Below, piece after piece: positions 34,658-52,839 of a DNA stretch of 64,000 nucleotides; position 1 is the stretch's first letter; each line of letters starts with the position of its first letter. Under the pieces are notes generated by a model, which had not been told where the DNA came from, did not search any database, and was given only the letters and a program-made list of their open reading frames with translations. Source of the DNA: Eutreptiella sp. 'Long Island Sound 2002' (Eukaryota; Euglenozoa; Euglenophyceae; Eutreptiales; Eutreptiaceae); assembly GCA_964036045.1 (NCBI GenBank), contig OZ038385.1:32082641-32146640 (forward strand), read 5' to 3'. Both the position numbers and the translations under genes were made by a program.

Positions 34658-34957
34658 TCAGCGCCCCCACTGACTCCTCCAGCCTATACTGCAGGAAGAC
34701 CCCTCATACGACTGGATTCCAGATCGCCATGCCTGCGGAAGCACAAAAGATCCCATGGGGACGCCCAGAGTCCACAGAAAAACCGTTTTGCGGTCCGGAA
34801 AAGCCCACATATCGCCTACTCTACGCGTTGCAGCCTCGCGTGCCAGACCCAGATCCCCTGCAAACTGGCCATGCGGCTTGCTGATGGGGTCCGCCGGATT
34901 CGCTGCACCACGCACCCAGTGAAAGTAAACCGTAAAACCCGGGCAGGACGCCCACAA
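34658..34957 (-). pseudogene. RNase H, 3' part (separated by hAT insertion)
   Basis: This segment begins inside the 8-bp target duplication. It carries the C-terminal RNase H signature HWVRGAANPADPISK, with the last catalytic aspartate in NPADP, followed by about 70 residues of unassigned sequence. The 5' part of the same domain lies 14.7 kb away at 49665-50018. Removing the hAT element and one target copy joins LW to AS-CPGF in the same frame. RNase H removes the RNA strand during reverse transcription. In this copy the gene is interrupted and non-functional. Confidence 0.85.
34950..34957. repeat. 8-bp target-site duplication, left
   Basis: GCCCACAA, matching GCCCACAG at 49665-49672 with one difference, directly abutting the hAT terminal repeats. 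Confidence 0.88.
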
Positions 34958-35325
34958 CAGCTATGTGTATAAGGTCTGATGTCTGATGTCTGATAAGGGA
35001 TGTTGTGTGTGCGGTCTGTCCACGAAGATGTCTGATATTCTTATGTACTGGAGGTGGGTCTAGGGGTCCAATGCCCCCCCCCCCCCGCCATTGTCCACAC
35101 CAAATTCTTCACAGGAAAACCCCCCCCCCACCCATCCCCCCCCCACTATCGGGTGCTTTCCAGCCTCCCTCCCCCCCCCCCCCCCCCAAGGAGAAAAGGC
35201 GCCACAGAAAACACAGGCCCCCCTGTTTGGAAAGCAATTGCACACCTGTTGTTGACAGTAGTGTATGTGACAACTTCAATTTGATTCTGATTTTGGTTGT
35301 TTGAGCAGACAATTTGTTTGTGTAC
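34958..35325 (+). repeat. Left terminal and subterminal inverted repeat of hAT element
   Basis: The outermost 14 bp form the terminal repeat. Next come three GTCTGAT words, C runs, a 28-bp block (35091-35118) and a 101-bp block (35225-35325). These last two reappear inverted at the right end. The GTCTGAT words occur at both ends but in the same orientation. Confidence 0.88.
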
Positions 35326-35328
35326 TTT

Positions 35329-35390
35329 GGGAAAGGGGAAAGGGGAAAGGGGAAAGAGGAAAGGGGAAAGGGGAAAGGGGAAAATGTGGG
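35329..35390 (+). repeat. GGGGAAA short tandem repeat
   Basis: About eight copies of GGGGAAA, one with a change (GAGGAAA), just inside the left subterminal block. Confidence 0.9.
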
Positions 35391-35627
35391 ACCAGGAAAA
35401 GTGGGAAAATTGAACAACCACCACACAAAAAAGCCAAATGGGAAACATCTCAAGGGATTGCATCATGACCATTGCAATCAGCATCAGTTAAATTCAGATC
35501 CACAAATAAAATGGTCGTGGTAATGCCACAGAACATCAAATCAAATGTGCAAACACGGAAAATGGGAAAAATCTTCGAAGACAGCACACAACAACAAAAG
35601 GGCACATGCAAATACGTGGGCATCCTC

Positions 35628-38600
35628 TCATTCATCGATGAGTCCATCCATGTCATCCACTGGCTGCGAGCAACTGGGCTGGGAGCTGCTTGGTGGTGCC
35701 GCAGAACGGGTGACACGGTCCGTGTCCGGCACAAAGGCATCCCATTCTTCCAATAATGGCAACGCATGCTGCGTAGCAAGGTCCCGCAGTTCCCGCCGAT
35801 CACTGTTACGTGCCACCTTCACACCAAGCACATCCAGACAGTTCAACAGCGCCCCCTTTGACCAATCACGCAGCCTGCCATTTTGCGTGGCCATCACCAA
35901 TTTCGCCTGCATCCTGGCCACACCACGCCTCTTATTTGGCTTCCGTGGTGTGGCCAATTCGTCTGCACTATTGTTCTCCCCCTCATCACAGACATCATCT
36001 ACAACATTCACCACCACGTTCCCACAAGGACGTGGACTTGCGCAAAAGCATGCATGGCACACCAGACATGTATTGCACCAGATGCGAACCTCCTTCTTGC
36101 ATGTGGCACACTCCATACCTCTGCGAAAAGTGATGAAGTCATGGTTGCCAGCATGCGAGTCAGGGGTCCCATCAGGTGCAACAATGCTGACCACATCTGC
36201 CTGGTGCCGTTCTGTACCCTTTCCCGAGGGTGCCGTTGAGCTCAGTGGTGTACCCGGCCCTCCAAAGAAGGGCAGGCTGTCACCATCATCAGCCACTGCT
36301 TCATTACCTTGCAGACATTGAAGCATTGCAGCCTCCACAGATTTTCTGTCCCCTACCTTCTTTGAAACCCTCTGTCTTGGGCGCAGATCGAAGCGTGCAT
36401 GGGCAGCCAGGTGGCGTGCCACTGCAACGCCTTGTCCCTTTGCCCATTGCTGTAAAGGGGGCAAGTAGGAATGCAATGCCATGCACATGCTCAGGACATG
36501 TGTCTCCACAGTGTCATGCATACTGCTGCAGAACCTCCCACGCAAAGAGATGGCATGCTCTACTGCAGCTTCAGCGGGGCAATATGTTCGCAATAATGCG
36601 AGAACGCGCCACACATTCCCCCACTGTGCATGTGCCCTTTCAGGTGCCAGTGCCTCCCACATCTTGGACATTTGCACAGTTGCAAAGTGCTGCACCATGT
36701 GCTCCTTAAGGCCTTCCCACTCTACCAAGGCACGGTCACAGTTCACATTGGCTGCACCCAACTCTTCTTGGTGTGAAGTCATGAACTGACGCAACTGCTC
36801 CACCCCATATGCAGCACGCTCATTGACCGGGAGGGCAACGAAACGGCCATGGTCCAACAATACTGCGCACTCCAACACCCCCCTGGGGTCAATGGTTGCC
36901 TGCCCCTCCTTGATGCCTGCAAGCAACACATCGGTCACTGCACGCGCCTGAACGCCTGGAAAAGGAGGGGTTGCTGCACACTTCTGCCCACCTGAATCAA
37001 ACTGGACCAACTGCACACCACGCCACGCACCAGTTACAGTCTGCTCCTTGAATTGCAACCACCCTGGACCCTCCTCGCAAGCCACCCTCTGCAACCGGGC
37101 TTCTAGCATACCTGTTGCAGTGGCTAAGTGTGCACCAGTGGGCGCACGTAGTTGTGCCACACTGTTAAAACACCGCATGCCATGCAGGATGTCCCCGTAG
37201 ACCACCCCCCATGCAAGCAAACTGGCATCATGGCAGTCCTCCCACACATCCTCCTCCTTGGTAGAATGCTGCACCTTGCAATCCAAGTGTCGTGCCACCC
37301 AAGGGACATTGGCCACAAAAGCAGCGTTGCGCCGTGCATGCGCCTGTGACCACCTGATGCGATGACTTGTGGGGATGAGCTGCAAGCCACTACGTTTATC
37401 CTGCACATGCCTTTGCACACACTTTTGCAACTCCTTCCACTGCCGTGCCCCATTGTACAAGCCTCGTTGCCGATTGACGGCCGCCAAGTAATCAACATGG
37501 GTTGGGCCAGCAGCCTGCAATGCAAGACCCAACTTGCGCTGCAACACATGGCACGGCTCACCCAAGGGTGTCATCAACACTAACCACTTCCCAATCAAGG
37601 CGAACACATTGCTCTCAATGTGTGATACATCAACAACCTGCCGCGCACTGGCACCCCGCACACCAAGGTTAGAAGCCCCGTCCACTGCAAAGGTCACTAC
37701 CCTCTTTGCCCACCAATCACGGTCAGGAATCCAGGACATCAGGACGCATTCTAGCTGCGTTGCAACCTCATGCGCATCACCACAGCCCACATCCACCACA
37801 CCAAGGAACACCTCACACATGCCCCTAGGGCTAGTCCCCGGGAAAATAAGTAGAATGGCGTACTCATTGATGCGATGCCTCTGCCTATCCGAGCCGTCAA
37901 GCAACACTGCAATGAACGTTGCCAGGAATAGGGCGTGCGTTACCTCATCCTGCATGGCATCATGCATTGCGGCAATAGCCTTCTCAACTATCCACCGCCG
38001 TGATGCATGGTGCCCAGGGGCGGATGTCAGAGAACAGTGCAGAAGGATGCGCTCACTTATAGCACGGATGGAAGTGCACATGCGTAACCCTATATACACC
38101 TCAACCAACCGTGACAGAATGGCTGCCTCAGCATCCGACACTGCCACACCAATGTCCATGGCTTCCCCCCTGACGAACACAACGTTCCCTCCCACCACGT
38201 CAGCTGTGGCACCAGCAGTGGGGCACAATGCGCGATACCGCTCTGCACAATGCAGCTTGAAACTGTCCTCAGCCAATCGGTGGTGGTGCCCTGGCCTATG
38301 TAGATTCTTTCGTTTTGATGTTGTGCCACGTGATAACCCCAAGTGGCTTTCCAACACCTCCTTCCGCCACGTTTTTGGGCCGGAGGTCTTCATGCGCATC
38401 CCTACAGCATATGTTCCCAATACCAGGGCTTCACTTTTCTTAGGGGGACGTGCCACCCCAGGAATGCCACACACGTTTGCCCACGCACAACACACACACT
38501 CAACACCCCCACTTGTCGTGAACTGATACTGCCAATGAGCGGCTACAAACATTTGTAGTGTCTTTGGACCACTGTCCAGTTGCATGGGAGTGGCCTGCAT

Positions 38601-39209
38601 CAACACGCACAATGCGTCCTTCCCCGATGCGGCCAATGCAACAGACCTCAACCTGTCTTGCTCGACTGATTGTGCTACTGAGGATTGTGACATGCCATGC
38701 TCTGCATGCCGCGCATCCCACTCTTTTGCATGCCGTGCTCTCAGTTGCATCTGGTGTGCTTCAACACGCACTCTCAGATGCCTTGCCACTCGCACCTTGC
38801 GCTTCTGCAGCAACTGTGCCACTGCCTCAACAAATTCTGAGGACGTCTGTAGCGGCGCCGAGGCAGCCACACACATCTCATTAGGCATGCTCTGGGCATG
38901 CGTACTCATGTCCCCTACCCTTGAAGCACTCTGTGTTGCAGTTGGGGAAGGGGGGGGTGCGCCTTGTGCCAGCGCCATGGCTGGCACAGAGGCGTCCATA
39001 GGCACGCTCTGGGCATGCATAGGCCTGTTCCTGATGTACCCAACCCTTGATGCACCCTGTGTTGAAGGAGGGGTGGGGGGGGGACGCACCTGGTGCCAGC
39101 GCCATGGCTGGCACCGAGGTGTCAGTAGGTACGCTCCGGGCATCCCGTGTCTGACCAGGGGCCGGCGGTCCTGTCCGTTGGGAGGCACGCTGCGACATGT
39201 CTGGTACAA
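35628..39209 (-). CDS. hAT-type transposase with BED-like finger, Cys cluster and SAP-like tail
   Basis: The 1193-codon frame has a Pro-rich N-terminal tail with two repeats of a PAMALA motif, then a BED-like zinc finger (about 215-290, with CVCC and a later His). The catalytic core has LLDGSD (Asp438) and FAVDGASN (Asp510), followed by CHVLQRK (553) and RIRWSQ (about 617). The hAT dimerisation segment is at about 862-916 (CPAEAAVEHAISL). A cysteine cluster follows (C1034, C1037, C1045, C1048, C1051, C1054, C1056), then a SAP-like helix-turn-helix (about 1110-1146). The first methionine may not be the true start: the upstream USP frame overlaps and encodes the same repeat, so a fusion is likely. 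It would cut and join transposon ends in the nucleus. Assignment rests on motif order, not on a search. Confidence 0.8.
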   Translation of the reverse strand: MYQTCRSVPPNGQDRRPLVRHGMPGAYLLTPRCQPWRWHQVRPPPTPPSTQGASRVGYIRNRPMHAQSVPMDASVPAMALAQGAPPPSPTATQSASRVGDMSTHAQSMPNEMCVAASAPLQTSSEFVEAVAQLLQKRKVRVARHLRVRVEAHQMQLRARHAKEWDARHAEHGMSQSSVAQSVEQDRLRSVALAASGKDALCVLMQATPMQLDSGPKTLQMFVAAHWQYQFTTSGGVECVCCAWANVCGIPGVARPPKKSEALVLGTYAVGMRMKTSGPKTWRKEVLESHLGLSRGTTSKRKNLHRPGHHHRLAEDSFKLHCAERYRALCPTAGATADVVGGNVVFVRGEAMDIGVAVSDAEAAILSRLVEVYIGLRMCTSIRAISERILLHCSLTSAPGHHASRRWIVEKAIAAMHDAMQDEVTHALFLATFIAVLLDGSDRQRHRINEYAILLIFPGTSPRGMCEVFLGVVDVGCGDAHEVATQLECVLMSWIPDRDWWAKRVVTFAVDGASNLGVRGASARQVVDVSHIESNVFALIGKWLVLMTPLGEPCHVLQRKLGLALQAAGPTHVDYLAAVNRQRGLYNGARQWKELQKCVQRHVQDKRSGLQLIPTSHRIRWSQAHARRNAAFVANVPWVARHLDCKVQHSTKEEDVWEDCHDASLLAWGVVYGDILHGMRCFNSVAQLRAPTGAHLATATGMLEARLQRVACEEGPGWLQFKEQTVTGAWRGVQLVQFDSGGQKCAATPPFPGVQARAVTDVLLAGIKEGQATIDPRGVLECAVLLDHGRFVALPVNERAAYGVEQLRQFMTSHQEELGAANVNCDRALVEWEGLKEHMVQHFATVQMSKMWEALAPERAHAQWGNVWRVLALLRTYCPAEAAVEHAISLRGRFCSSMHDTVETHVLSMCMALHSYLPPLQQWAKGQGVAVARHLAAHARFDLRPRQRVSKKVGDRKSVEAAMLQCLQGNEAVADDGDSLPFFGGPGTPLSSTAPSGKGTERHQADVVSIVAPDGTPDSHAGNHDFITFRRGMECATCKKEVRIWCNTCLVCHACFCASPRPCGNVVVNVVDDVCDEGENNSADELATPRKPNKRRGVARMQAKLVMATQNGRLRDWSKGALLNCLDVLGVKVARNSDRRELRDLATQHALPLLEEWDAFVPDTDRVTRSAAPPSSSQPSCSQPVDDMDGLIDE

Positions 39210-40326
39210 CCAAATCTGTCGGTTTCCGCTTGTATAGCAGAAACGTCGCCTTTCGCGGGTCGGGGGGGGGGGGGTTCATGGCCTTCACCGTGGTGTCGTT
39301 ACACAACCACCACCTGTCGTTGAAAACGACATGCACCACAAAGTGACCCTCCTCCCTGGTCGCTCCAATGTGCAACACCATGGCATGCAAGGACCATTGC
39401 CACCCCAGGCAATCGAGAAACTCATGGTCCACAACCAACTTGTACTCCTGCTGGTTGTGGACATGTAACCCCACGACCTCGTTGTACACCACCGATGTAT
39501 ACATTGGTGCCTCCCTCAGGTCACCCCCACACGGACACGGGGGGGGGGGGTTGTCAGGTAACCCAACCGGTCTCCCCTTCATTCCCTCCTTCACACGCTG
39601 TCGCACACTCTGCCCCTGGTTCGTCACATGCAATATCTGCGCTGGCATGGCCGTCTCCCCCCCCTCCCGCAGAACCTTCACCCCACAGGCACCACAGTAT
39701 TGCCAGAACTGCTCGTACGACAAACAACATGACAGAGCAACCACCCCAGCGGCCGTGAGCTTGGGCACCATGTACTTCCAACACTCGGGCATCTCCGCCT
39801 GCCGCATCCATTGGAATTTTGGTGCAGGGGCTTTGCACTTGCATCGCCCGCTGCATCGGCACACCGTCTCACGCATGGCATCCTCCATTGCCAGCCTCTC
39901 AGCAATGTCCTGTGGATTGTATGCACCACCTCCTCCATGTGCCACAACACCCTGCCACAATGGTCCCCAGACACCCTCCTCGTCCAGGCATCCTGCGTGC
40001 TGTCCTTCATGTCCACCCGACGCCACCAACAGACACTGCAGCGTGGTACCCAACCAACACCAGTTGTACCCACGTGGATTCTCCATTCCCCATGGTCGCC
40101 GTGGTGCTCCACCAAGTGGCCCACTATGCACCTGCATGTAAGCGGAAAGCGGTCTCATCGAGGAATGCATGGTCCCGCGGCGGGAGTGTCCACCAGTCAC
40201 CACGGGAGTACAACACCACCAACCTCCTCTCCCCGTGCCAAGAACAAGTGCCATGCCATGCACCCGTACGTACGAGAACCGGTTGCTGGCATACATCGTA
40301 CGTGGCGCCAACCCGTGTAACACCAT
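38881..40326 (-). CDS. USP-type (C19) deubiquitinase-like protein
   Basis: The frame (481 codons) contains a recognisable USP fold signature: a Cys box GYNWCWLGTTLQCLL (Cys90), zinc-ligand pairs YCGAC (211/214) and PCPCGG (264/266), and a His box WSLHAMVLHIGA...EGHFVVHVVF (His328). WWLCND (Asp344) and ATFLLYKRK complete it, in the canonical order and about 280 residues long. All three catalytic residues are present. USPs remove ubiquitin from substrates. The last ~110 codons overlap the transposase frame out of phase. A C tract at 39074-39082 marks the change, and losing one base there would make a USP-transposase fusion. The N-terminal ~70 codons of this frame look like noise; another frame (40378-40124) is the better upstream continuation. 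Confidence 0.78.
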   Translation of the reverse strand: MVLHGLAPRTMYASNRFSYVRVHGMALVLGTGRGGWWCCTPVVTGGHSRRGTMHSSMRPLSAYMQVHSGPLGGAPRRPWGMENPRGYNWCWLGTTLQCLLVASGGHEGQHAGCLDEEGVWGPLWQGVVAHGGGGAYNPQDIAERLAMEDAMRETVCRCSGRCKCKAPAPKFQWMRQAEMPECWKYMVPKLTAAGVVALSCCLSYEQFWQYCGACGVKVLREGGETAMPAQILHVTNQGQSVRQRVKEGMKGRPVGLPDNPPPPCPCGGDLREAPMYTSVVYNEVVGLHVHNQQEYKLVVDHEFLDCLGWQWSLHAMVLHIGATREEGHFVVHVVFNDRWWLCNDTTVKAMNPPPPDPRKATFLLYKRKPTDLVVPDMSQRASQRTGPPAPGQTRDARSVPTDTSVPAMALAPGASPPHPSFNTGCIKGWVHQEQAYACPERAYGRLCASHGAGTRRTPPFPNCNTECFKGRGHEYACPEHA

Positions 40327-40724
40327 CCAAGCTTTCCATACTAAAATCTCCGTCCACCCCGACCATTACATACACCACCTACCTCCACCCATATGTGTCC
40401 CCGTGTGTGCTGGCCGGTGGAAAACACTGCCGACCAAGGGGACGCGTCATGCACATACTGATGCGGTTTTGTGAGCACATTGCAAGACAATTGCATGGTG
40501 GTCCATGTGAACCAATCAGGCAACATCTGCCTTGCCATCTTGTTCACCAGGGTCACCAGTGGCTTGTAGTTGCGTGTCCGTTGCACTAGACGAGTGCGGC
40601 GGCAGTCTGTTGCATTGGTGTGGCCCTTCATACCACCAACCCCTAGTTGCAAATGCCACGCTCTAACCCCCCCAACCGGCCCACGCTTGTATGCCAAGAT
40701 GCCCTCATCCCGTGCAACGTGCAA
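40124..40724 (-). CDS. Linker between OTU and USP domains, frame-broken
   Basis: Two minus-strand frames bridge the OTU and USP frames. The first (40724-40341) begins in a G tract near 40664 and reads LAYKRGPVGGVRAWHLQLG and later LVTLVNKMARQMLPDWFTW. The second (40378-40124) reads VGVDGDFSMESLDGVTRVGA and LYSRGDWWTLPPRDHAFLDE. Both have protein-like composition and run continuously into the neighbouring domains, so the coding sequence probably spans OTU, linker and USP with accumulated frameshifts or short introns. The linker matches no family I know. Confidence 0.5.
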
Positions 40725-41761
40725 AAGGGGGCTACCTGCAGCGAATGGTCAAAGACTGCACCCCGGAAATGACCACCTCCTTTGACACCATCTCGTTCCG
40801 CCTCGGCAATAACCACCACCGTCGCCCGGTGGCACTGCTCCTCCATATCCCCACAGTCACGGTAGTGCAGCGGATGCTCCCGTCCAGGCACCCAAACAGT
40901 AGCGGATGTCAACGCGCTGTCGATCCCAAAACCTGACGTCACAATGCTGTACCTGTCTGATCGCAGCAACACCACACTACCGTCCACATGCTTCGCCAAG
41001 GCAGCAAAGTGGTCAGGCATTCCCCCTTGGGGCCGGCCACGCCATGTGTCCTTCTCAAGATCCCGGTTCACAGATAGTGTAGACTCTTGAATTGAAAGCC
41101 CACACATGTCGCGAAACACGGTGATGGCCCTTGCCCGCAGCGATGCGCCGTCCAACGGGGTGTTGCTGGTGATAGCATGCAGGCTTTGGGCCACGGCATA
41201 GTAGAAACATGCCCCGGCAACGTATTGGTCGGGAAGAATGCGAAGCTTCAAGGACCTTGCCGTTGGTAGGACTCTGCCAACCTCGGCCTTGCTGGGCTTT
41301 CTGTCCACGTCGTCCAATGCCATAGCATCTGGATCTATCGGCGCTGTCTTTGTGCCTTGCTCTTTCTTGCCAAGTTTCACGGCAGCCCCATTACTTGGTG
41401 GGGGAACCCCTGGGCGCTTCTTGCTCCGTGGGCTCTGTCCCACAGAACTGGGGTGTGCAACCGGGGTGGTCGCTGACTCTGCACTGGACTGACTGCAAGC
41501 CCTCACTGTCGCCAATGAACTAGGGTGTTCAACCGGGGTGTACCCTGAATCCGCACTAGACTGACTGCAGGCCTTGACTGTCGCCACAGTGCCTGTGCTA
41601 GAAGGACTGCAGTCCACAGCAGCTGGCTCCTTGGGTTTCTGTGCAAGTGGTACAGGAGACTCCTCCAAAGAACTCGCCACCCCTCCATCACTAGCCGCCG
41701 GTGTCAGACATACAGGGTGGGGGGCCGGGGAGTGTGGCGTGAGTAGCCCTGCAGGATCCAT
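40643..41761 (-). CDS. OTU-like cysteine protease domain protein
   Basis: The N-terminal ~165 residues are Ser/Pro-rich with two repeats of CSQSSA-type sequence and a basic patch (RSKKRP). The C-terminal half has OTU features in order: AGACFYYAVAQSL (Cys185), SLRARAITVFRDM, a WRG...GGMPDHFAALAKHV block and VVLLRSD, then GGHFRGAVF (His331). OTU proteins hydrolyse ubiquitin linkages. The Asp usually found in the D-G-x-C box is replaced by Ala here, so activity is uncertain. The frame starts after a poly-C tract (41863-41874). One base change there makes it continuous with the 519-codon frame upstream, through GGANDSAACVGRGT. OTU domains have been reported in some mobile elements. Confidence 0.72.
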   Translation of the reverse strand: MDPAGLLTPHSPAPHPVCLTPAASDGGVASSLEESPVPLAQKPKEPAAVDCSPSSTGTVATVKACSQSSADSGYTPVEHPSSLATVRACSQSSAESATTPVAHPSSVGQSPRSKKRPGVPPPSNGAAVKLGKKEQGTKTAPIDPDAMALDDVDRKPSKAEVGRVLPTARSLKLRILPDQYVAGACFYYAVAQSLHAITSNTPLDGASLRARAITVFRDMCGLSIQESTLSVNRDLEKDTWRGRPQGGMPDHFAALAKHVDGSVVLLRSDRYSIVTSGFGIDSALTSATVWVPGREHPLHYRDCGDMEEQCHRATVVVIAEAERDGVKGGGHFRGAVFDHSLQVAPFCTLHGMRASWHTSVGRLGGLERGICN

Positions 41762-41783
41762 TACGGATGCAATGGAAGGTGAC

Positions 41784-43343
41784 TCATCGGCGGGGCAGAC
41801 CTGGGACCTTGGGTCCGGTGTTCCACGTCCAACACATGCCGCAGAGTCGTTCGCACCACCTGGGGGGGGGGGGAGGTGGACTTAACACCTCACCAGGGCT
41901 ATCCACCCTACGTGCACCTGCCGGGGGACCACGCCCTTGTGCCAGGGAGGACGAAGTGGGAGTCGCAGACTCATCGCCTGAGGGGTCTCTTGCCATGAGC
42001 ACCGCCGCTCCACCCTCTTGCGCTACAGCAGAGGACGTGGAGTCACTTGGGTCAACTCGGGGGTGCCCTTCTGGACTTAATCGTTGGGTGTATGGTCGCT
42101 GTACACCGGCCGCCTCCATCTCCTCCATGAGCACCGCCGCTCCAACCTCCTGCGCTACGGCAGAGGACGTGGAGTCACTTGGGTCACCTCGGGGGTGCCC
42201 TTCTTGACTTAAAGGTTGGGTGTATGGTCGCTGTACACCGGCCGCCTCCATCTCCTCCATGCGCACCGCCGCTCCAACCCCCTGCGCTACGGCAGAGGAC
42301 GTGGAGTCACTTGGGTCACCTCGGGGGTGCCCTCCTGGACTTAATCGTTGGGTGTATGCTGGCTGTACACCGGCCGCCTCCATCTCCTCCACTAGTACCT
42401 GCAGCATCTCAAGACCTCCATCATCCCTCCATGCGTTGTCCATAACCCGTACGGCCGCATGCAGACGACCGGGATGACTGTCTGGCACCTGTGGGCTAAA
42501 GGGGCTGCAACGCAGCAAGAGCTCGTTGCAGTCCTGCATAGACACCCGCATGCTGTTCGCGAAGTGGCGGCCCAGCGTGTATGCTGCCACCAGGCTGTCC
42601 TCAGTCAATGGTTCTCGGCGCTGCTCTTGCAGCCCTTGGCATGCAATCGTGAGGCAGCGGGCTGCCCCATGGGCGGCTTGCAGCAACGCTTGGTCAAAGC
42701 GCTCTTGCCGTGTCTGGGTGACAGTGACACACGCACGTGGGACCGCAGCCTCAGGCAGCAACGAGTTGCGCCGACCGCTAGCGCGCGCCTTGGGGCTTGG
42801 CAACAGGTCGCTCACCAGTGGTTTGGGCCCACTTGTCGCTTGGGGCCACAGATATGGGCCAGGTGTCACATGGCGAATAGCCTTGTCATAGAAGTAACCC
42901 ATGGTAGGGGTGGGATATGCCACGTCCCCAGTCCAGAACGGCCACTCTTCGACCAGAGGTAGGGCACGCACCAGTTCACACCAAACGTCCCTTTGCTCTG
43001 CTGTCTTGACACTTGACGGCCACCCGGCAATAGCACCGGCCTTACGACTGCCTGGCCGGCCACTGTTCCGTTTTGCAAGTCGTTCCCACAGGTCTGTGGC
43101 AACATCCCGGTAGTGCACGAGGCTCCCCCCATCATGCATGGTGGGCTTGGCAAACCCATGCTCGGTGTACATGAACCGGCACAATGCCCTGCAACTATGC
43201 AGATTCACCACGTCAAGGTCACACGAGGCCATGCGGTCCCTCAACCGTCGCCATAGGCGCCCGGCCACCTCCGGTGTGGCCTCCCACCCCAATTGTGCTG
43301 TGGCCAGCATTAGGCCATACTTCATTCTTGCTGGCTCCAGCAA
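41784..43343 (-). CDS. Unrecognised transposon protein with 40-residue repeats
   Basis: The first ~320 residues are globular-looking (WRRLRDRMASCDLDVVNLHS, CRALCRFMYTEHGF, MGYFYDKAIRHV) but match no family I know. The C-terminal part has three tandem repeats of about 40 residues (EEMEAAGVQRPYTQRLSPEG, then HPRGDPSDSTSSAVAQ), visible at DNA level as ~120-bp repeats at 42010-42390. The frame ends in poly-Pro encoded by a C tract, and the adjoining frame continues into the OTU protein. It is therefore likely the N-terminal part of a long OTU-containing protein. The start at 43343 is the first Met after a stop. Confidence 0.6.
   Translation of the reverse strand: MLEPARMKYGLMLATAQLGWEATPEVAGRLWRRLRDRMASCDLDVVNLHSCRALCRFMYTEHGFAKPTMHDGGSLVHYRDVATDLWERLAKRNSGRPGSRKAGAIAGWPSSVKTAEQRDVWCELVRALPLVEEWPFWTGDVAYPTPTMGYFYDKAIRHVTPGPYLWPQATSGPKPLVSDLLPSPKARASGRRNSLLPEAAVPRACVTVTQTRQERFDQALLQAAHGAARCLTIACQGLQEQRREPLTEDSLVAAYTLGRHFANSMRVSMQDCNELLLRCSPFSPQVPDSHPGRLHAAVRVMDNAWRDDGGLEMLQVLVEEMEAAGVQPAYTQRLSPGGHPRGDPSDSTSSAVAQGVGAAVRMEEMEAAGVQRPYTQPLSQEGHPRGDPSDSTSSAVAQEVGAAVLMEEMEAAGVQRPYTQRLSPEGHPRVDPSDSTSSAVAQEGGAAVLMARDPSGDESATPTSSSLAQGRGPPAGARRVDSPGEVLSPPPPPPRWCERLCGMCWTWNTGPKVPGLPRR
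42010..42390 (-). repeat. ~120-bp coding tandem repeat, 3 copies
   Basis: Three copies share CTCCATCTCCTCCA, then GCACCGCCGCTCCA and GAGGACGTGGAGTCACTTGG (plus strand). The unit is a multiple of three and keeps the protein frame. Confidence 0.9.
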
Positions 43344-43639
43344 GTGCTCCGGTGGCCATTCAGCAGGCTAGTCCATTGCTTGGCTCGTGCACCACGACTG
43401 TTAGTGGTTTGGGTGACCTTCGAGGCTTGCAGGGTCCACAACCGTGACCACTATGGGGCTCCCACAACTCGGGGGGGCAATCAAGGGCAGGTCCTTGGTA
43501 CTCAAAGTGCCAGCCGGGCTGGTCCTCAGGCTCACCGGCTGGTCCAGGAGACGCCGTTGCTGGTGGGTTTGTTGTCGAGAGCGCTAGGGCTATGACAACA
43601 AACGACGTGCTGCTGCTCAGAGGCACGCAGTGGCTACGT

Positions 43640-43862
43640 CAAGGCTTAGTCGCGAAGCGCAATGGCTTGGACTGTAACCGATAGCTGAGGCTCAAAGGCG
43701 CACAATAGACAACCAGAGTTCAGTCGCGGAGCGCAGCGGCTCAGACTGAAACCGAAAGCTGTGGCTCAAAGGCGCACAGTAGGCGATCACGGTTCAATCG
43801 CGAAGCGCAATGGCTCGGACCGAGCCAGGTAGCTGTGGCTCAAAGGCGCACAGTAGGCGAAT
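43640..43862. repeat. 74-bp tandem repeat, 3 copies
   Basis: GGCTCAAAGGCGCACA recurs at 43689, 43763 and 43837, with matching sequence between (CGCGAAGCGCAATGGCT). It lies directly upstream of the 519-codon gene, where a promoter would be expected. Confidence 0.9.
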
Positions 43863-43969
43863 TGGCAGAACGCGAACTCGCACAGGGAAAGGTGTAATGA
43901 GGCAAAAACAAACTACAAGGAGAAAAAGTACAAATGAGACCACAGAACCTGGACGCGGCATACCCCCGA

Positions 43970-44610
43970 AATGTTTTGGGGGTGAGATATTGGGGGGTAT
44001 TTGACGGAACCCCTTCCGTCAAATATTTGGGGGCCGTAGACCCCCCAAATATTTCACGGAAGGGGTTCCGTCAAATATTTGGGGGTGTACAGCCCCCAAA
44101 TATTTGACGGAACCCCATCCGTCAAATAGTTGGGGGGTCTACACCCCCAAAATATTTGACGGAAGGGGTTCCGTCAAATATTTGGGGGGTCTACAGCCCC
44201 AAAATATTTCACGGATGGGGTTCCGTCAAATATTTGGGGGCTGTACACCCCCAAAATATTTGACGGAAGGGGTTCCGTCAAATATTTGAGGGGTCTACAC
44301 CCCCAAAATATTTCACGGAAGGGGTTCCGTCAAATATTTGGGGGGTGTACAGCCCCCAAATATTTGACGGAAGGGGTTCCGTCAAATATTTGGGGGGTCT
44401 ACACCCCCAAAATATTTGACGGAAGGGGTTCCGTCAAATATTTGGGGGGTCTACAGCCCCAAAATATTTCACGGATGGGGTTCCGTCAAATATTTGGGGG
44501 CTCTACGGCCCCCAAATATTTGACAGAAGGGGTTCCGTCAAATATTTGGGGGGTCTACACCCCCAAAATATTTGACGGAAGGGGTTCCGTCAAATTTTGG
44601 GGGGCCAGGT
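43970..44610. repeat. 52-bp array made of two alternating palindromes
   Basis: About 12 units, each containing arms TTTGACGGAA / TTCCGTCAAA around a GGGG or CCCC centre, then arms ATATTTTGGGGG / CCCCCAAAATAT around a TCTACA-type centre. Every unit can form two hairpins. The array overlaps the C-terminal codons of the upstream Pro-rich gene and fills the gap before the 74-bp repeats. Whether it ends transcription, forms cruciforms, or is simply an expanded satellite cannot be told. Confidence 0.92.
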
Positions 44611-45802
44611 TCCGCTTGGTGCCGTTCTTGTCTGCCCACACCTCAGCGGCCGCCATCTCGTGGACGGTGTACACCTCTGATGCTTTGGTCACAAATTTGT
44701 CGCGGTCAAGCCACCGTTGCGTAAGCCCTTCGACAAGGTTGTCATCGGGCCTGTAGTCCATGTTGTTCAACGTGGCCGTAGTGGGCAACAGTGTTGGCTG
44801 CTGTGGCTGAGCAGCACATGGTGGTTGTGAAGAGGGTTGAGCTCCTTGTGGCGCACCCGAGTCGACCGGCGCCATGGCCGGGACAGGGGCGGATTGCTGC
44901 GGCTCTTGGGCACGCATTTGCGGGGCAGAGGGTTGGGTACCGTGTGGCGCGCCCGAGTCAGCCGGCGCCATGGCCGGGACAGGGGCGGATTGCTGCGGCT
45001 CTTGGGCACGCATTTGAGGGGCAGAGGGTTGGGTACCCTGTGGCGCGCCCGAGTCCACCGGCGCCATGGCCGGGACAGGGGCGGATTGCTGCGGCTCGGG
45101 GGCACGCATTGCTGGTGCAGAGGGTTGGGCACCCTGTGGCGCGCCCGAGTCCACCGGCGCCATGGCCGGGACAGGGGCGGATTGCTGCGGCTTTGGGGCG
45201 CGCAATGATGGTGGTTGTGCCGAGGGTTGCGGTGGGATCATGACGAAGTCCACACTCCCGGGTGGTGGCTGGGGCGGTGCCTGTGGGGGGGCAGAGGGTC
45301 GCGTGCCCCTGTCAGCCGGCGCCAGGGCCGGGACAGGGGCGGAGTGCAGCGCCTCTGGGGCGCGCGGTTGAGGTGCCATTGCCTTTGGGGGGGCAGAGTG
45401 CGGCACGCCCTTGTCAGCCGGCGCCAGGGCCGGGAGAGGGGCGGACTGCGGCGCCATTGGGGCGCGCGGTTCAGTTGCCGGTGCCTTTTTGCAGGCAGAG
45501 TGCGGTGCGCCCCTGTCAGCCGGCGCCAGGGCCGGGACAGGGGCAGACTGTGGCGCCTCTGGGGCGCCCGGTTGAGTTGCCGGTGCCTTTTCGGGGGCAT
45601 AGTGCGGCGCGCCCCTGTCAGCCGGCGCCAGGGCCGGGACAGGGGCGGAGCCGCGCGCCTCTGGGGCGTGCGATGGTGATGGTGATGGTGATGGTGGTGG
45701 TGCCGTTGCCTTCGGCTTCGGCTTTGCACCATACTTGGTCTTGGCGAGCCATTTTGGAGCCATTTGGAAGAGTGCCCTACGAGTGAGAGACGCTCGGCGC
45801 AC
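44555..45802 (-). CDS. Pro/Ala-rich repeat protein of the hAT element
   Basis: A 415-codon frame starts with a basic segment (MAPKWLAKTKYGAKPKPK at the second Met). It then has about four repeats of ~34 residues (APADRGAPHSAP, APQSAPVPALAP) followed by four repeats of ~32 residues (PQQSAPVPAMAPVDSGAPQG). It ends with a short non-repetitive region (DNLVEGLTQRWLDRDKFVTK) that may be globular. The last ~18 codons are formed by the palindromic array. The protein is predicted to be disordered. A degraded duplicate of its start lies at 47730-47880. The function is unknown. Confidence 0.55.
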   Translation of the reverse strand: MRRASLTRRALFQMAPKWLAKTKYGAKPKPKATAPPPSPSPSPSHAPEARGSAPVPALAPADRGAPHYAPEKAPATQPGAPEAPQSAPVPALAPADRGAPHSACKKAPATEPRAPMAPQSAPLPALAPADKGVPHSAPPKAMAPQPRAPEALHSAPVPALAPADRGTRPSAPPQAPPQPPPGSVDFVMIPPQPSAQPPSLRAPKPQQSAPVPAMAPVDSGAPQGAQPSAPAMRAPEPQQSAPVPAMAPVDSGAPQGTQPSAPQMRAQEPQQSAPVPAMAPADSGAPHGTQPSAPQMRAQEPQQSAPVPAMAPVDSGAPQGAQPSSQPPCAAQPQQPTLLPTTATLNNMDYRPDDNLVEGLTQRWLDRDKFVTKASEVYTVHEMAAAEVWADKNGTKRNLAPQNLTEPLPSNILGV

Positions 45803-46772
45803 ACTGCCCGAAGAGCTGGAAATTCGAACGTCTCGCCGAAGTCAGGGGTCGCTGCAGGGGGGCTTGCGCAGGGAGCAATGACCCAAATTGCGGGGGGGCG
45901 GACTGAGACGCACGCCGCTGGAGCAATGAACCAAACTGCGGGGTGGGGCATGGCCGCTTTGGGGCGGGAGCCAGTGGGAGGAGTGAGGTATGGCGGTGCC
46001 TGCTATACTGGGTCAGCGTCACCTGATCACTTGGTGGAGGGGGCAGCGGCCGACGCGGCACAGGTGGCGGGGCTGGCTTGGGGATACGGGGGGGTTTAGG
46101 GGTGGCACACAGGATTTCAAGTACCACTGCTGCATGCTCCTCGTCCCTGCTGAGGAAATGCGAACGACTAATTCGCATGCCCTCCTGCCACACCCGCAGG
46201 GGGTTTTTCTTGGGCTGCTGCACAGCAAACCGGTACATCGCTCGGCGGTTGAGCACCCCGTCTACGAAGTACTGGACCCCACCCCCGTGATTCTCCCGGA
46301 TGAGCTGCAGTGTTTTGGCAATGTAGGGCCCGTGTACAGTGGGCTTTGGGGGGGTGGGCGGGTCCTTGGATACGTACTTGGGGGGTTGCGGGGGGGATGG
46401 CGGTGGCACGGCAGTGCACATCAGGGCCTCCTCCACGGCTTCCAGGGCTACCAGGTATGGGGTTGGGTTAATGTGCGGTCTGCGTGGAGGACTTACGGGC
46501 GTTGGAGAGGTTGTTGGTGCACAGCGGGGTGAAGGGGGAGAGGGAGGCGGTGTTGGCAATAGAGGCTGGGGGGAGGCCAGTTCGCTGAGACACTTCTCAG
46601 CATCAGAGTCCCACGGTGGCGATGGGGGTTGGTCTCCAAACCGCAAGAGCTCCGGCAGATCCCCCCAACCGCATTCCGGGAACGAAGGGCTGGAGGGGGC
46701 GGAAGAGGCCACGCTAAGGGGGCTAGACGACAGGTCAAATTGCAGCCCGCAGTGGGTGGGGGATGAACGCAT
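45777..46772 (-). CDS. Pro-rich protein of the hAT element
   Basis: This 331-codon frame is the most 5' coding sequence of the element. It is Ser/Pro-rich at both ends, with a central ~85-residue region of globular character (GPYIAKTLQLIRENHGGGVQ, YRFAVQQPKKNPLRVWQEGM, HFLSRDEEHAAVVLEIL). It ends overlapping the start of the next frame by 26 bp. Two tandem FGSLL repeats lie near the C-terminus. I do not recognise it. Its place next to the right terminus suggests a structural or regulatory partner of the transposase, which is inference. Confidence 0.55.
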   Translation of the reverse strand: MRSSPTHCGLQFDLSSSPLSVASSAPSSPSFPECGWGDLPELLRFGDQPPSPPWDSDAEKCLSELASPQPLLPTPPPSPPSPRCAPTTSPTPVSPPRRPHINPTPYLVALEAVEEALMCTAVPPPSPPQPPKYVSKDPPTPPKPTVHGPYIAKTLQLIRENHGGGVQYFVDGVLNRRAMYRFAVQQPKKNPLRVWQEGMRISRSHFLSRDEEHAAVVLEILCATPKPPRIPKPAPPPVPRRPLPPPPSDQVTLTQYSRHRHTSLLPLAPAPKRPCPTPQFGSLLQRRASQSAPPQFGSLLPAQAPLQRPLTSARRSNFQLFGQCAPSVSHS

Positions 46773-46989
46773 GGGTGCTAGGGCAGGCCCAACTCAAATG
46801 TCTGGGTCAGAGACGCAACGGTCTAGACCCTAGACGCGCTCCCTCGCCTCAAGGGTCAAGGGTCGATAACAAAAGAGTGCCCTATGTGTAGAAGAGGCTC
46901 AGCGCACACTTGTCTCCTAGGCAATACACGCATTTCCCTTTGTGTCGAGAGAGACATGCACAACAAGGAACAAATAAGCGTTGAAGGGA

Positions 46990-49200
46990 CATAGGTACCA
47001 GGAGAATGTGACACGGGACCCCTTCTCAGTAGTGTGCAGCATGTTCATCATTGAAGGGGTCTATGGTCATAGGCGCCATGGCCTAGACCACGGACGTACT
47101 AAACACCTCAAGGGTGTTGTGCATGATCCGCCAAATAAAATAAAATCAAGTGCGATAAAACCGAAACGTAGCAGAGCCCCTTCTCAGTTTTTTTTTTGGC
47201 TGACGGTGGGAATTCTGCATCACCCAACTCAAATGCAGTCCGCCACATTGGACAGTACTGCGCCCGGCAGGGCAGAATGAAAAAGAAACCTTGGGGCCGG
47301 AATTTGCGCAATGACCCAGACAAGCTGTCAAGGTAGGGGCTGGCATATGTTGTGCAGCACAAGGGTGCAGTAGGGCTGATTGCAGTGGTCTTTGGCAAGT
47401 TTGGCAAACATGCAGATCCGTTAGAGTATGGGGAGATGCCTAGCTCCATCCAACAAAATAGGGCCTAAAACAGCAGGCCTTGGACAGATTGTTCCCACAT
47501 GGCTGACACATCATCGAAGGGGATGCATACGTACATGGCACAATGCATGCTCCATCTAATAAAATAAAATCCATCAAATCCATCAAATCAAACAGAGCCA
47601 AGACACAAAAGTATTAGCAACGCACACCTCTGAGAATGGTAACCAAAACAGCCAAAGCAGAGCCCCTTCTCATGACATTGTTTTCGGTGGAAGCGTCAGC
47701 CTCCGGGCGCCATACGACTATGGGGATGTTTGAAATATGTCTTGGGGCACGCAGTTGCAGGGCAGAGGGTTGGGCGCCGTGTCGCGCGCATGGTGGTGAT
47801 GGTGGTGGTGCCATTGCCTTTGGCTTTGGCTTTGCACCATACTTGGCCGGGACAGGGGCTGCGCCTCGAGGGCTCTTTAGGGATGCTGCTGGTGCGAAGC
47901 CGGATCCCTTCCCCCCCGGATGTGGAGTTGGATGGTACTGATTTTCCCATGCTTAGGCAAATGCTGTTTCATGCCCCACTTTCTCAACAGCTCTGCCGAC
48001 CCAAACAGGGCCTATGAAAAAAGGTCCCTGCTGGGGTCTGTGCCTCTGCTGTGGGGGAAGCACAGACCCGATGTCGGCAAAGCATCCCCCTGCGTTTGCG
48101 CCCTTAGAAACAAAAAATCATCGAAGGGGATGCGTAACCTCGTTTGTCAAATAGCAAACATGGAAGCAAATACCAGGAAATCAGAACCCCTTCTCAGTTG
48201 TCGTCAGCACATTCCTCATCGAAGGGGTCTGTGGTCGTAGGCGCCAGGGCCTAAACCATGGACATACCAAACACCTCGATGGGTGTTTTTCAGGAACAAA
48301 CAGCACACTTTCAAATACACCTTCAAAAGAAATGCAATGCGACACGTGGCACCAAAGTTGCAAATGTTCACGACTTACACCATAACACACCTCTGAGAAT
48401 TGTAGTCTGTGGGTAATCTGTAGTCTGTGATTTTTTCCATGTTTTTCCACTACACACAGAACCAACAGAACATCGAACTTCACAGACACACACCATGTGA
48501 TGCTGACACTGAAAGAGGCAAGGCAGGCTTTTCCACACCATTGCGCATGGGGTTGCGTGGGGGGTGTTTTCCCTACACTATGGATTTCTCTGCATGGTTT
48601 TCCAAACTTCCTCAAGAAACACCACGGCAAGACGGAGGACGACAAGACAGAGCACAGGGGTTTTAATGGTCGTCACCAGATCCTGCAATGAACGAAAAAG
48701 CGTGAGCGGGGCAAAGTGCAGCACATTGCAATGAGCCTTCGGGGCTGGGACAGAGGGGCGGTTTAAAACAAGGAAGTCAAATTCGAAATCACTGCAAAGC
48801 CCCTTCTCAGATGTACGTTGCTTGGCTTTCAAAATGGTTGCTGGCCATTGGAGGACATGGTGCACATTCTGTTGGACATGGTACACTGACTGCTGGGGGC
48901 AGTCCCATTCCTCGGCCGCAAATCCGCAAAGCTCCGTCCGCACAAAACAGGTCCTAAGAAACAGGTCCCTGCGGGGGTCGACACTGAAGACCCACGCGTG
49001 ACAGAGCAGCACATGTAAATTGTCATGCATCGTCATTGAAGGGGCTCACAGTCAGCAAATTGTAATTGGTTGCAGGAGCAAACATGCCAGAACCCCTTCT
49101 CAGTTGTGATCAACGCGTTCATCATTGAAGGGGTCTCTGGTCTAAGGCGCAAAGGGGTAGACCACAAACGATCAAAAACACCTCAAGGGTGTTGTACACA
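46990..49200. repeat. Subterminal repeats of hAT element (CCCCTTCTCAG type)
   Basis: CCCCTTCTCA(G/T) occurs near 47020, 47178, 47660, 48187, 48804 and 49092. Three copies (47015-47125, 48187-48290, 49092-49200) extend to ~105 bp, including TTCATCATTGAAGGGGTCT, GGCGCCATGGCCTAGACCA and AACACCTCAAGGGTGTTGT. CCCCTTC and GAAGGGG face each other, so each copy holds an imperfect dyad. Repeated subterminal motifs are usual transposase-binding sites in hAT elements. Otherwise this 2.4-kb stretch has no supported gene. Confidence 0.75.
47730..47880 (-). pseudogene. Relic of the Pro/Ala-rich gene start
   Basis: The plus strand here matches pieces of 44900-44940 and 45660-45745 (GGGCAGAGGGTTGGG, GGTGATGGTGGTGGTGCC, TTTGCACCATACTTGG) but lacks the intervening repeats, so it is a partial internal duplicate. 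Confidence 0.7.
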
Positions 49201-49664
49201 AACAAATTGTCTGCTCAAACAACCAAAATCAGAATCAAATTGAAGTTGTCACATACATTGTCAACAACAGGTGTGCAATTGGTTTCCAAACGGGGGGGTT
49301 TGTTTTTTCCGTGGCACCTTTTTTTCCTTGGCCATGAAGCAACGGATACTTGGCTACCGAACGCCCCCGTGTCACAAGCGACCGGTCATTGCCACGCAAA
49401 GTTCAATCAGTTCCTCGTATTGTGCATTTTTTTCCTTGGGGGGGGGGTTGAAAGCACCGGACAGTGAGGGGGGGGGGTGGGGGGGTCATGGGGGGGGGTT
49501 TCTTGTGAAGAATTTGGTGTGGACAAGGGCGGGGGGGGGGGGGGGGTTGATGTAGTGCATAATCAAGGGGTTGGGGGAGGGGGGTTCATGGTCTGGTAAT
49601 GATGGTCCATAAAAGTCTGACGTCTGATGTCTGATAGCCGACTAGGTCGCTATACACATAGCTG
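49194..49664 (-). repeat. Right terminal and subterminal inverted repeat of hAT element
   Basis: Complement of the left zone: a 98-bp block (49194-49291), a short GAAAGCACCGG block (49450-49460), a 28-bp block (49499-49526) and the final 14-bp terminal repeat, with G runs in place of the left-end C runs. Confidence 0.88.
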
Positions 49665-49672
49665 GCCCACAG
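49665..49672. repeat. 8-bp target-site duplication, right
   Basis: GCCCACAG, partner of GCCCACAA at 34950-34957. Confidence 0.88.
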
Positions 49673-50018
49673 GTACCCGAAACACTTAAGCAGGCACTGC
49701 TGGTACACACGCCCCACACTTGCTTTGCAACCGCAAAAAGTGCAACAGTGCCACCGCATTGTCACCAAAAAGATATGCCTCGCGGATGCCTACGTTAAGA
49801 ATAAATTTCAAACCCCACAGGACCGCAAGCGCCTCCGCGCACTGTTGGTTCGGCGGTTGCTCATGGGGCACCGCGGACCGCGAACCAAGCTCCATCGAAA
49901 AAAACTCCCAACGTGCACACACCCCCGTCGAACATACACAAACGCCGGCTTTCTCCGTACCTCTCTCGGCAGGGGGATCACTGACCAACCCGGCAAAGCC
50001 AACACACACACCGCGCAC
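49665..50018 (-). pseudogene. RNase H, 5' part
   Basis: The minus frame reads QCAEALAVLWGLKFI (catalytic Glu) and YLFGDNAVALLHFL (catalytic Asp), the order of a type-I RNase H following a reverse transcriptase. A single-base frameshift near 49725 moves coding into the frame VYQQCLLKCFGYLW. That frame then hits the hAT insertion at 49664 and resumes at 34949. The first Asp box is not clear. The gene is interrupted and frameshifted. Confidence 0.82.
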
Positions 50019-51113
50019 ATAGAGCGCAACAACTTGACCGAGGTGAACTGCAGACGGGGGGGGGGGGGCGGGGGCAACACATGGGCCCAGACCCCCGATA
50101 AGTGAGGACTACGCCCAAATGGAGGTCTACAGATCCACTGCGCGCGCCCTAGAAATTGCTGCAGGCGCCGCACACTACAGACACCGACAAACAATCTCAA
50201 CCAGTGGGCCAGCAGGGCTTCCCACGCATTCCCCGCCGTCTGCAGGCTGCCCCCACCCATATCCACGTCCTTTCCCAACCACACCAGGCGCGTAACCGGC
50301 TCCAAGGTGCTCTTTGGGCTTATAACTCCACCCACCGCACGCAACGCCTGCACCGCGCGCATAGCCTGCCCACGCACGTGCCCTTTACCCCGTCCCACAA
50401 TGAGCACATTGTCGATGTAAATCAAAACCAACACTCCCACCAGGCCAATCTCCTCCACAAGACGTTCCAAAACCTTCTGGCATAGAATGAGGCTATACTT
50501 CCAACCAAAAGGCAGGCACCTGAACGACAAAACTCCCCCCTCACCATCCGAGATACGGAAAGCCCCCCAGAAGGCTTCCGGGAGGCGCAGCGACCAAAAA
50601 CAATGATTGAGGTCAATATGGCACATACACAATCCCTCATCCCCCCCCCCTCCCCGGGAGCCCCAGCACCTCCCAAACTGGCCGGAGACATCGGGCCCTA
50701 CTATATAAAGGTGGGAGGAAAAAGGAAGACCCGTGCTGTGCCACCTGCGCCAAAAGGGCAAGGACCTCTACTGACGGTAGCGAAAATTTCTCAGGCTTCT
50801 CAGGCATCTCTCTATTCACTGGCACCAAATTCACAATCAGGCTGCACTTATCAAGCGTTTTTGGGATAGCAAAAACTCCCCCGCTCGGACCTGGTGACCC
50901 CGGCGGTAGGGGGAACAATAGGTGTTAGCTACGCAAAGCATGCAATATGACTGCCTCGTCCGACGGGGGCCCAACTCCTGAGAAGTGGCGGTTGGCAACC
51001 GATGCAAAGGATTCCGGCACATAACGCTCCCAAATATCAGCTGGGATAGGGATATGCCCAACCACCCCGAGACCCCTACTCAACACTTCGTCCCTTATGC
51101 GCTGCATCAGCAA
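49808..51113 (-). pseudogene. Reverse transcriptase, frameshifted
   Basis: The fingers region lies in 50918-50637 (GGVFAIPKTLDKCSLIVNLV). The palm lies in 50761-49808: CMCHIDLNHCFWSLRLPEAF (catalytic Asp50), SFRCLPFGWKYS, IYIDNVLIV (115-118) and VWLGKDV. Order and spacing match DIRS-type reverse transcriptases. The invariant second Asp of the YxDD box is Asn, and a frameshift at the C/G tract near 50644 separates fingers from palm, so this copy should be inactive. A short frame at 51113-50925 (IPADIWERYVPESFASVANR) precedes the fingers. It copies the element RNA into DNA. Confidence 0.88.
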
Positions 51114-51146
51114 CTTCGGCGACGTAGAATCGTGTAGCAGTGACTC

Positions 51147-52839
51147 CTAGACCCCTGAATCCAGGGAGGACAGTGCTGTTGCAATCAAGGGCAAGAAATC
51201 CGGCTGCCGCAGGTCCCTAGCCGCCTCCACCCCCCAATCCACAAATTGGCTCAAGCGCCGCTCCAACAAGCACGGCGGGGCCCTAGGTAAGCATGCACGC
51301 AGGTCACGCAGCCACGCATCCCACTCACCGCATTGCAGGCGCTCCGGAGCCCACCGATCCACTGCTGACTCGGCGGGAAACTGCCGATCGGGCAGCCGCA
51401 CCCACAAGCCTGGCCGGCCCCGCTGCTTTCCTCTTTCCCAAGACCGACGCAACTCCGCCCGTCCGGTGTGCCGCGATCCGGAGCCGACGGATAAAGGAGG
51501 TGCCTGCCGATGGGGGGGGGGGGGGCTTAGCATCGACGTCGATGACGTCCTCTCTCTCCCGACGTCCGCCAACCCGCTCGGACCCCGGTCGCCCTTGCAC
51601 GGCCGCGAAGGCCAGAGGGACATCCAAGACCCTCGCGTCCCCGCTTCTGTCACACTCTCTCCACTTCTCTCAGTGCCACACCCCCCGGCAGGCTGGCTGT
51701 CTCCTTGCCCCCCCCCGTCATCCCGTCGGCTGCGGCATGCATGTGACTCGGCGGTGGCCTCCGCATCCCTCCACCTGCCGAGGACTTCTTCTGGACCCAC
51801 ATCCTTTTCCCGCACACAGAGGGCTAGAACTTCCCCCGGGAACATGTCTTTGAGGGATACAACGCTCCACTCCAACTCCGTGCCCCCTCGCGCACTGGGC
51901 CACGGCAACTCCACGTCGTCGGCCACGACAAAATCGTCTGGGGCGTCACCATAGTGGGCCGCCACTGACTCTGACATCCAACGTCCCCACCGGGCGAGCC
52001 ATCTGACCGGCAAACCCAACCAGCGCAAGGCCGCTGACCCACCCCTCCTCCACGCATGCCACCGCGCGTGGGCGATATCACATCCGCTGAGGGCGGTCGC
52101 CATGACCATTTGGAGGTAGGCTGCCCCTTGTGAGCAGAAGTGTGCCAGCGGGACCGCTGATGTGGATCCCTCTCGGTCCAACCATCGCAGCCATGCCCTG
52201 CCGTAGCTCCCCAGCTTCCTTCGGACGAAGTGTGGGACCCGCCACGCCTGATGGGGGCTGCCTCGCCCACCCGCAGCAGGCAGGTGAATGATAGGACCGC
52301 CATCCCATATGCCGTCCACTGTGCCCTGCTATCACATGCTCTCGCGAAACTCCCGAGCTCCTCCAAACCTGCATAGGGGCGTGCCACCGCCTGAGATGTG
52401 GCCCACTTTGCGCACCTCCATACCCTGCCGGTAACAAATTCCGGTAGCCATCCCATTTCTTCCAATGTGCGCATTGCGGATACCGCCCCCCTGAGGAAGC
52501 TCCTGGAATACCCCAAGCCCCAGAGCTGGAACAGGTACCTGCATGCTTCTCTCTCCAAGCCATCGATCGGCGTGTATCTGACCCATAGGGCCAATTTCCT
52601 GTAGTGGGTACAGTACGTACCCATGGTGCTCTTTGCCCAGAAGGACACCTGCAGGGCATCCACAGAGGTGATCTCATCCTCCTTCCACAGCCGTCTCCAC
52701 GCTGCCCATACCAGACGCCAGACCATGTCGTCCCCATCCCGGAAGTCGGTCGGCTGCAAGACCACCACATCTTGTTGGGACTCGACTGCCTGGCGCCCAA
52801 GCGGGCAGCGCCCCCATCAGTGAAACCCCGGGCATTCAT
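51147..52839 (-). pseudogene. Tyrosine recombinase of the retroelement, frameshifted
   Basis: The N-terminal half is in the frame 52768 to about 52265: a SAM-like core-binding domain (KSTMGTYCTHYRKLALWVRY), then LSFTCLLRVGEAAPI with the first catalytic Arg. After a frameshift near 52265 the frame 52319-51147 carries ARWHAWRRGGSAAL (His88/Arg91) and GRWMSESVAAHY (Trp114 and nucleophile Tyr123). This R...HxxR...Y set defines DIRS-family recombinases, which insert circular cDNA. A further ~260 residues follow, with low complexity, then a region ending in LLERRLSQFVDWGVEAA. Unusually the gene lies upstream of the reverse transcriptase. Confidence 0.87.

Follow-up and report, generated by a model that had tools for sequence, protein, structure and literature searches.

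The window analysed here, a stretch of 64,000 nucleotides of contig OZ038385.1 from the euglenophyte Eutreptiella sp. 'Long Island Sound 2002', carries between positions 34958 and 49664 a transposable element whose minus strand encodes a hAT-like transposase, a USP domain and a putative OTU-like domain. The element is bounded by 14-bp terminal inverted repeats, CAGCTATGTGTATA on the plus strand at 34958..34971, followed by TCTGATG-type heptamers, and its complement on the minus strand at 49651..49664. Comparison of the flanks reveals a target-site duplication, to which no strand is assigned, formed by GCCCACAA (34950..34957) on the left and GCCCACAG (49665..49672) on the right. The 8-bp duplication described in an initial annotation of this DNA is present, but its two copies agree at 7/8 bases and are not a perfect match. 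Further inside, a left (35185..35325, plus strand) and a right (49194..49331, minus strand) subterminal inverted repeat pair over 64 nt with 100% identity (35262-35325 against 49194-49257) and over 73 nt with 85% identity (35185-35257 against 49259-49331). The inverted ends named in the same annotation were confirmed across the 2.28-Gb source genome, in which the 14-mer occurs 718 times (371 forward and 347 reverse) as against 0 occurrences of a reversed control pattern. Duplications were scored at 21 end pairs, comprising the window copy, two long copies designated A and B, and 18 fetched pairs, which were no random draw but came from the 100 places at the head of the list (all of contig C1 or early in C2), and they agreed at 8/8 bases in 14 pairs, 7/8 in five, 6/8 in one and 3/8 in one. 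The candidate e5 was rejected as a genuine element, given that it has no duplication and shows small transposase and USP matches at its left edge, and it probably represents two unrelated ends.

The USP domain lies in a stop-to-stop open reading frame (ORF) of 494 amino acids (aa) at 38881..40365 on the minus strand and belongs to the peptidase C19 family, with ubiquitin cleavage as its predicted activity. It matches the Pfam UCH profile at 32.1 bits, above the curated cut-off of 23.9 (E 1.1e-7), in an alignment that covers profile positions 197-254 of 254 alone, which is the His/Asp end, with the Cys box outside the match. Motif reading places the Cys box, the His box and the Asp/Asn in order, together with zinc Cys pairs at codons 39696/39687 and 39537/39531, and the triad and zinc pairs of the initial annotation hold good, its Cys90/His328/Asp344 being Cys103/His341/Asp357 of this ORF (codons 40059, 39345 and 39297). 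Seven of the 10 relatives scanned score above the UCH cut-off. Against PDB sequences, the UCH profile A4 found nothing at E 0.01, and profile A3 reached USP12 and USP5 at no better than E 0.39-1.8.

Next to the USP, on the same strand, lies the OTU-like ORF, with an N-terminal region at 41784..43367, the OTU-like domain at 40697..41299 and, downstream of it, a middle domain at 40341..40748. The catalytic pair initially given as Cys185/His331 corresponds to Cys225/His371 of a 412-aa ORF (codons 41209 and 40771), and the two residues sit in conserved GACF[FY] and GGH[FY] boxes. Using a modest AlphaFold model, Foldseek returned OTU proteases at all of ranks 1-26 (best E 3.8e-3, prob 0.82), with weak scores and with matches of few kinds, nairovirus and Wolbachia. 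This modelled fold and the motifs suggest that the neighbour of the USP-transposase is probably a second deubiquitinase of another fold, OTU-like; the residues proposed initially stand and Foldseek weakly favours the fold, but Pfam does not add to it, as the OTU profile matched none of 28 relatives nor the window copy, only stray single-member matches appearing above E 0.03. A doubtful reading that nonetheless deserves weighing is that the domain belongs to some other group of papain-like cysteine proteases, or has a degenerate fold with no deubiquitinase activity, leaving one deubiquitinase only. It is favoured by the lack of any Pfam match, by a PDB sequence search with the OTU part that found no match, by the weak structural scores and by a second structural aligner that placed unrelated chains above OTU for the same model, whereas the run of OTU proteases of few kinds in Foldseek, the conserved boxes around the Cys and His and a codon pattern of purifying selection, described below, argue for the OTU-like assignment. 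An earlier AlphaFold model (512 aa, P0062; mean pLDDT 37) gave a meaningless Foldseek list with OTUD5 at rank 4 (E 2.8). A profile link between the OTU and USP alignments was discarded as an artefact, since A1 includes P0018 and with it a piece of the USP. The middle domain, between OTU and USP, displays conserved motifs of the PHQH..D, WH and W.G.RR.VVLY type; a suggested likeness to 2OG-Fe(II)/TET-JBP dioxygenases was set aside, Pfam and PDB profiles giving it no support.

The transposase ORF extends over 35628..39275 on the minus strand, here in another frame than the USP, whose gene it continues in intact copies. It shows by eye the motif order D...D...RW...ER (codons 37898 and 37682 for the two D, 37352 for the W and 36560 for the E), with D-D, D-W and D-E distances of 72, 110 and 374 residues, a spacing that we take to be near that of Hermes. 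The terminal inverted repeats are short, begin with CAG and are accompanied by subterminal repeats, as is typical of hAT ends, and the duplications have the 8 bp of hAT elements, with 8/8 in 14 and at least 7/8 in 19 of the 21 end pairs. A C-terminal PAxxAxVERxxS-like motif is also found, by eye, in a hAT ORF. Elsewhere in this genome, an ordinary hAT transposase ORF (L051, C1:7162700-7165150) has an N-terminus that looks chromodomain-like by eye. The hAT transposase of the initial annotation finds support in motifs read by eye but not in Pfam: 13 transposase relatives matched no transposase or integrase family, the UCH part alone being matched; Dimer_Tnp_hAT (PF05699) was found in none of these 13, and the best 150 of its 1757 candidate genome places exclude the window. 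PDB profiles likewise gave no match for the transposase part. Since the motif anatomy is of hAT type and no profile matches, the label 'hAT-like' is used throughout. The KDZ, P and Merlin superfamilies make 8-bp duplications as well, and a transposase from one of them, instead of from hAT, is an unlikely alternative to which the absence of a hAT profile match and an uninformative profile comparison with one hAT lend some weight, while the motif order and spacing, the CAG-starting ends and the C-terminal motif seen also in a hAT ORF point to hAT.

Protein searches of the genome, in which only the best candidates were scored (42 of 1911, 82 of 36670 and 44 of 1945), revealed how regularly these domains travel together. 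At least 22 of the 42 best-scored transposase places have OTU upstream on the same strand, with OTU-transposase gaps of 1452-1490 nt in 21 cases and 2097 nt in one, so that the initial proposal to look for the same domains in other copies was answered in the affirmative; the window copy and element A possess OTU yet sit among the 20 unmatched places, which makes 22/42 a floor. USP and transposase occupy a single ORF in P0008, P0016, P0086 and P0089, on other contigs, and in C17, where the OTU ORF (1073 aa) and the USP-transposase ORF (1578 aa) are both stop-free and overlap at their ends, the Met immediately ahead of the USP lying 31 nt upstream of the OTU ORF end. At 9 of the 42 best-scored places the open frame reaches 1,550 aa or beyond, which leaves room for USP plus transposase, and five of these nine have no internal stop. 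A sister subfamily, whose transposase is 68% identical to that of the window family, has such frames at 27 of its 44 best-scored places, and the single TGA at nearly all sister places is presumably their ordinary stop codon, given that P0084 continues beyond it. One sister copy presents the same order of helicase-gene 5' part, OTU ORF and USP-transposase, and the sister copy L048 has a similar end sequence by eye.

These observations are further strengthened by the codon-position 1/2/3 identities between the two subfamilies, which are 0.70/0.73/0.42 for USP, 0.78/0.80/0.51 for the transposase and 0.63/0.71/0.38 for OTU, an excess of third-position change which argues that all three proteins are kept by selection. 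NG86 estimates of nonsynonymous (dN) and synonymous (dS) divergence between subfamilies are dN 0.35/dS 2.66 for USP, 0.23/1.41 for the transposase and 0.37/2.03 for the middle domain; as these dS values are large and saturated, we rely on the codon-position identities. For OTU, dS was not computable, and between subfamilies the alignment of the N-terminal part and of the linker is poor. Within the family, the transposase has a milder dN/dS of ~0.4-0.5, as expected if many copies decay. Hand counts among relatives with a matching context pattern gave a USP His in 18/18 and, from 54 scanned for OTU, the OTU Cys in 37/38 and its His in 33/37.

Further upstream in the element, minus-strand regions at 44603..45841 and at 45777..46793 represent the proline-rich 5' part of a helicase gene whose helicase part is missing. 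In e12 and e17 the region matching 44603-46793 runs on into an SF1 helicase (Pfam AAA_11 E 2e-11 and AAA_12 E 6e-9 in e17; AAA_12 E 1e-6 in e12), of a kind that is presumably UPF1-like; in the window this homology breaks off at 44603, the start of a 52-bp satellite array. The copy in the window thus derives by deletion and has lost the helicase, and the 14.7 kb initially taken as the whole element falls short of the most complete copy seen, the 21.8-kb element A (21,770 bp, duplication 8/8). Element A contains the transposase, USP, middle and OTU domains, some of the N-terminal region, the helicase and the proline-rich parts, with its genes in several frames, as well as 5.8 kb of satellite. 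It bears out the expectation that a longer copy would combine helicase and proteases, although it was picked after the transposase had been placed in it and so was not a blind choice. An end spacing of 21-30 kb as a general mark of the full-length element was ruled out by B, the first long copy fetched, which spans 21.7 kb, 13.2 kb of it satellite, and has no detectable element protein. C17 combines OTU, USP and transposase with helicase sequence further upstream, its far end lying outside the fetched stretch. In the most complete copies, a single strand encodes the SF1 helicase with its proline-rich part, the N-terminal, OTU-like and middle parts together in an ORF of ~1,070 aa, and the USP-transposase in an ORF of ~1,580 aa. 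In the sister copy L050 (2-679; C12:56311800-56315500), the helicase gene, read by eye, likewise breaks off shortly beyond its 5' part, with the OTU ORF following at once, and helicase loss may thus recur. The genes of the window copy are spread over several frames, with frame changes near G runs of 9-13, which may come from assembly errors. With its helicase lost and its genes in several frames, this copy is probably moved only by the proteins of intact copies.

The copies e12 and e17 hold transposase and helicase and are without both proteases; taken literally, they are copies lacking these domains, which the initial annotation named as evidence against its reading. They lend support, as does the replacement of genes by satellite in most fetched end pairs, to the view that the deubiquitinase region is passive cargo, captured pieces of host genes without a role. 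This view is nevertheless quite improbable and largely refuted, considering the single USP-transposase ORF in both subfamilies, the near-constant OTU spacing, the third-position excess for USP and OTU and the retention of the USP His and OTU Cys among pattern-matched relatives; the word cargo, applied to the proteases initially, does not suit a USP that shares its ORF with the transposase. Moreover, a 174-bp transposase segment (38872..39045, minus strand) recurs in element A where satellite and helicase meet, a second copy of it standing beside the helicase in A (174 bp) and in C17 (165-bp match), and the transposase homology of e12 ends at this segment. Recombination between the segment copies would explain the deubiquitinase loss in e12 and e17, whose junction fits an internal deletion, and the presence of OTU and USP in the sister subfamily argues that their state is a loss. 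The satellite arrays and the 174-bp duplicate that mark the internal junctions could also be read as traces of a nested composite, a deubiquitinase-bearing element inside a hAT with a helicase, but the sister-subfamily copy with the same order makes this very improbable indeed.

The 52-bp palindromic satellite of the window, to which no strand is assigned, comprises 11.7 units at 43998..44604 and occupies the site of the missing helicase part. Its unit includes TATTTGACGGAAGGGGTTCCGTCAAATATTTGGGGGG, and arrays of up to 13 kb lie within same-ended elements (L009-L039). Among the fetched end pairs, 16/18 contain arrays of the 52-bp repeat, from 0.3 to 10 kb long, and 14/18 have no detectable element proteins, and in e27 parts of both gene ends flank 5.6 kb of satellite. 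Ends plus satellite is the commonest form in this non-random sample, and such copies are probably non-autonomous passengers.

The ends and their duplications, the order and recurrence of the genes, the homology of the USP and the conservation in two subfamilies are all directly visible, and we consider with good confidence that the window contains one copy, shortened by internal deletion, of a large DNA transposon present in many copies. The transposon is most likely of the hAT type and moves by cut and paste, with a USP fused to its transposase and an OTU-like neighbour. It is also somewhat probable, as a broader proposal, that a giant (~22 kb) hAT-like lineage encodes a USP within its transposase, an adjacent OTU and an SF1 helicase, and spreads satellite through 52-bp arrays that expand in deletion derivatives. 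The transposase would bind the ends and subterminal repeats and mobilise the element. Fusion of the USP to the transposase would by itself bring deubiquitination to the transposition complex, where the fused USP and the neighbouring OTU may strip ubiquitin. The most likely substrate would be the transposase itself, for its stability, and the alternative would be chromatin or the repair factors acting at the break.

The element is inserted in a decayed minus-strand retroelement. A minus-strand reverse transcriptase (Pfam RVT_1, E 7e-8) adjoins it, accompanied on that side by an RNase H-like stretch (an RVT_3 match below its cut-off), and the opposite flank bears an RNase H-type tail, HWVRGAANPADP, read by eye, for which Pfam gave no match. 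When the flanks are joined without the element, a 138-aa ORF runs across the junction; the RVT_3 frame stops at 49689, indicating that the host retroelement was already frame-shifted or decayed after the insertion. This retroelement has RVT_1 and long upstream ORFs at 49811-52816 (minus strand), the latter without Pfam match, and the transposon adjoins its RNase H part. Elsewhere in the window, a 47-bp tandem repeat of ~88 units runs from 59849 to the window end at 64000, preceded by a GTTGT array (58982-59507), and tandem arrays at 25930-26741 and 12718-12994 have 195-bp and 85-bp units. No Rfam family matched within the window, and a scan of viral contigs found no relative.

OTU, Ulp1 and C19 proteases are already known from other transposons, and the USP-fused hAT-like transposase with its OTU neighbour is a variation on this known theme. 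Mutator-like elements (MULEs) differ from this element in their Mutator transposase and 9-bp duplication, and the Ulp1 protease that some of them bear has the C48 fold. These Ulp1-bearing MULEs are likewise DNA transposons with a protease for ubiquitin-like proteins (PMC2836005). The same paper describes Ginger1 transposases, which resemble our element in bearing an OTU or Ulp1 domain within the transposase protein, and whose describers proposed that ubiquitin has a part in transposition or in repair; they differ in their Gypsy-integrase-like transposase, in a C-terminal protease of one type per element (Table 1) and in their length of 2.6-7.1 kb (PMC2836005). It also mentions Trichomonas XP_001314237.1, in which a USP-type protease (peptidase C19) is joined to a transposase in one protein, although the latter is transposase_11 (pfam01609) and OTU and helicase go unmentioned in that passage (PMC2836005). 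Helentrons combine an SF1 helicase with an OTU-like protease but are rolling-circle elements with a PIF1-type helicase and Rep, a hAT-like transposase and USP being unmentioned in the excerpt, and rolling-circle insertion, as described for Helitrons, makes no target-site duplication (PMC4067079), unlike the element described here with its inverted ends and 8-bp duplications. No hAT with the set of USP, OTU and helicase appeared among the literature matches listed, Repbase and most subscription papers lying beyond this scope. As for the satellite, the Tetris foldback transposon of Drosophila virilis supplies satellite building blocks and is likewise a DNA transposon linked to a satellite, differing as a foldback element for which the available excerpt mentions no protease genes (PMC4079207). 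The satellite-filled derivatives found here suggest, in concrete form, how satellite DNA may be seeded genome-wide by a transposon. Ubiquitin and SUMO proteases recur in unrelated DNA transposons, and a USP covalently part of a transposase, next to a probable second protease of different fold and in a family with stop-free copies, provides a system in which to ask why.

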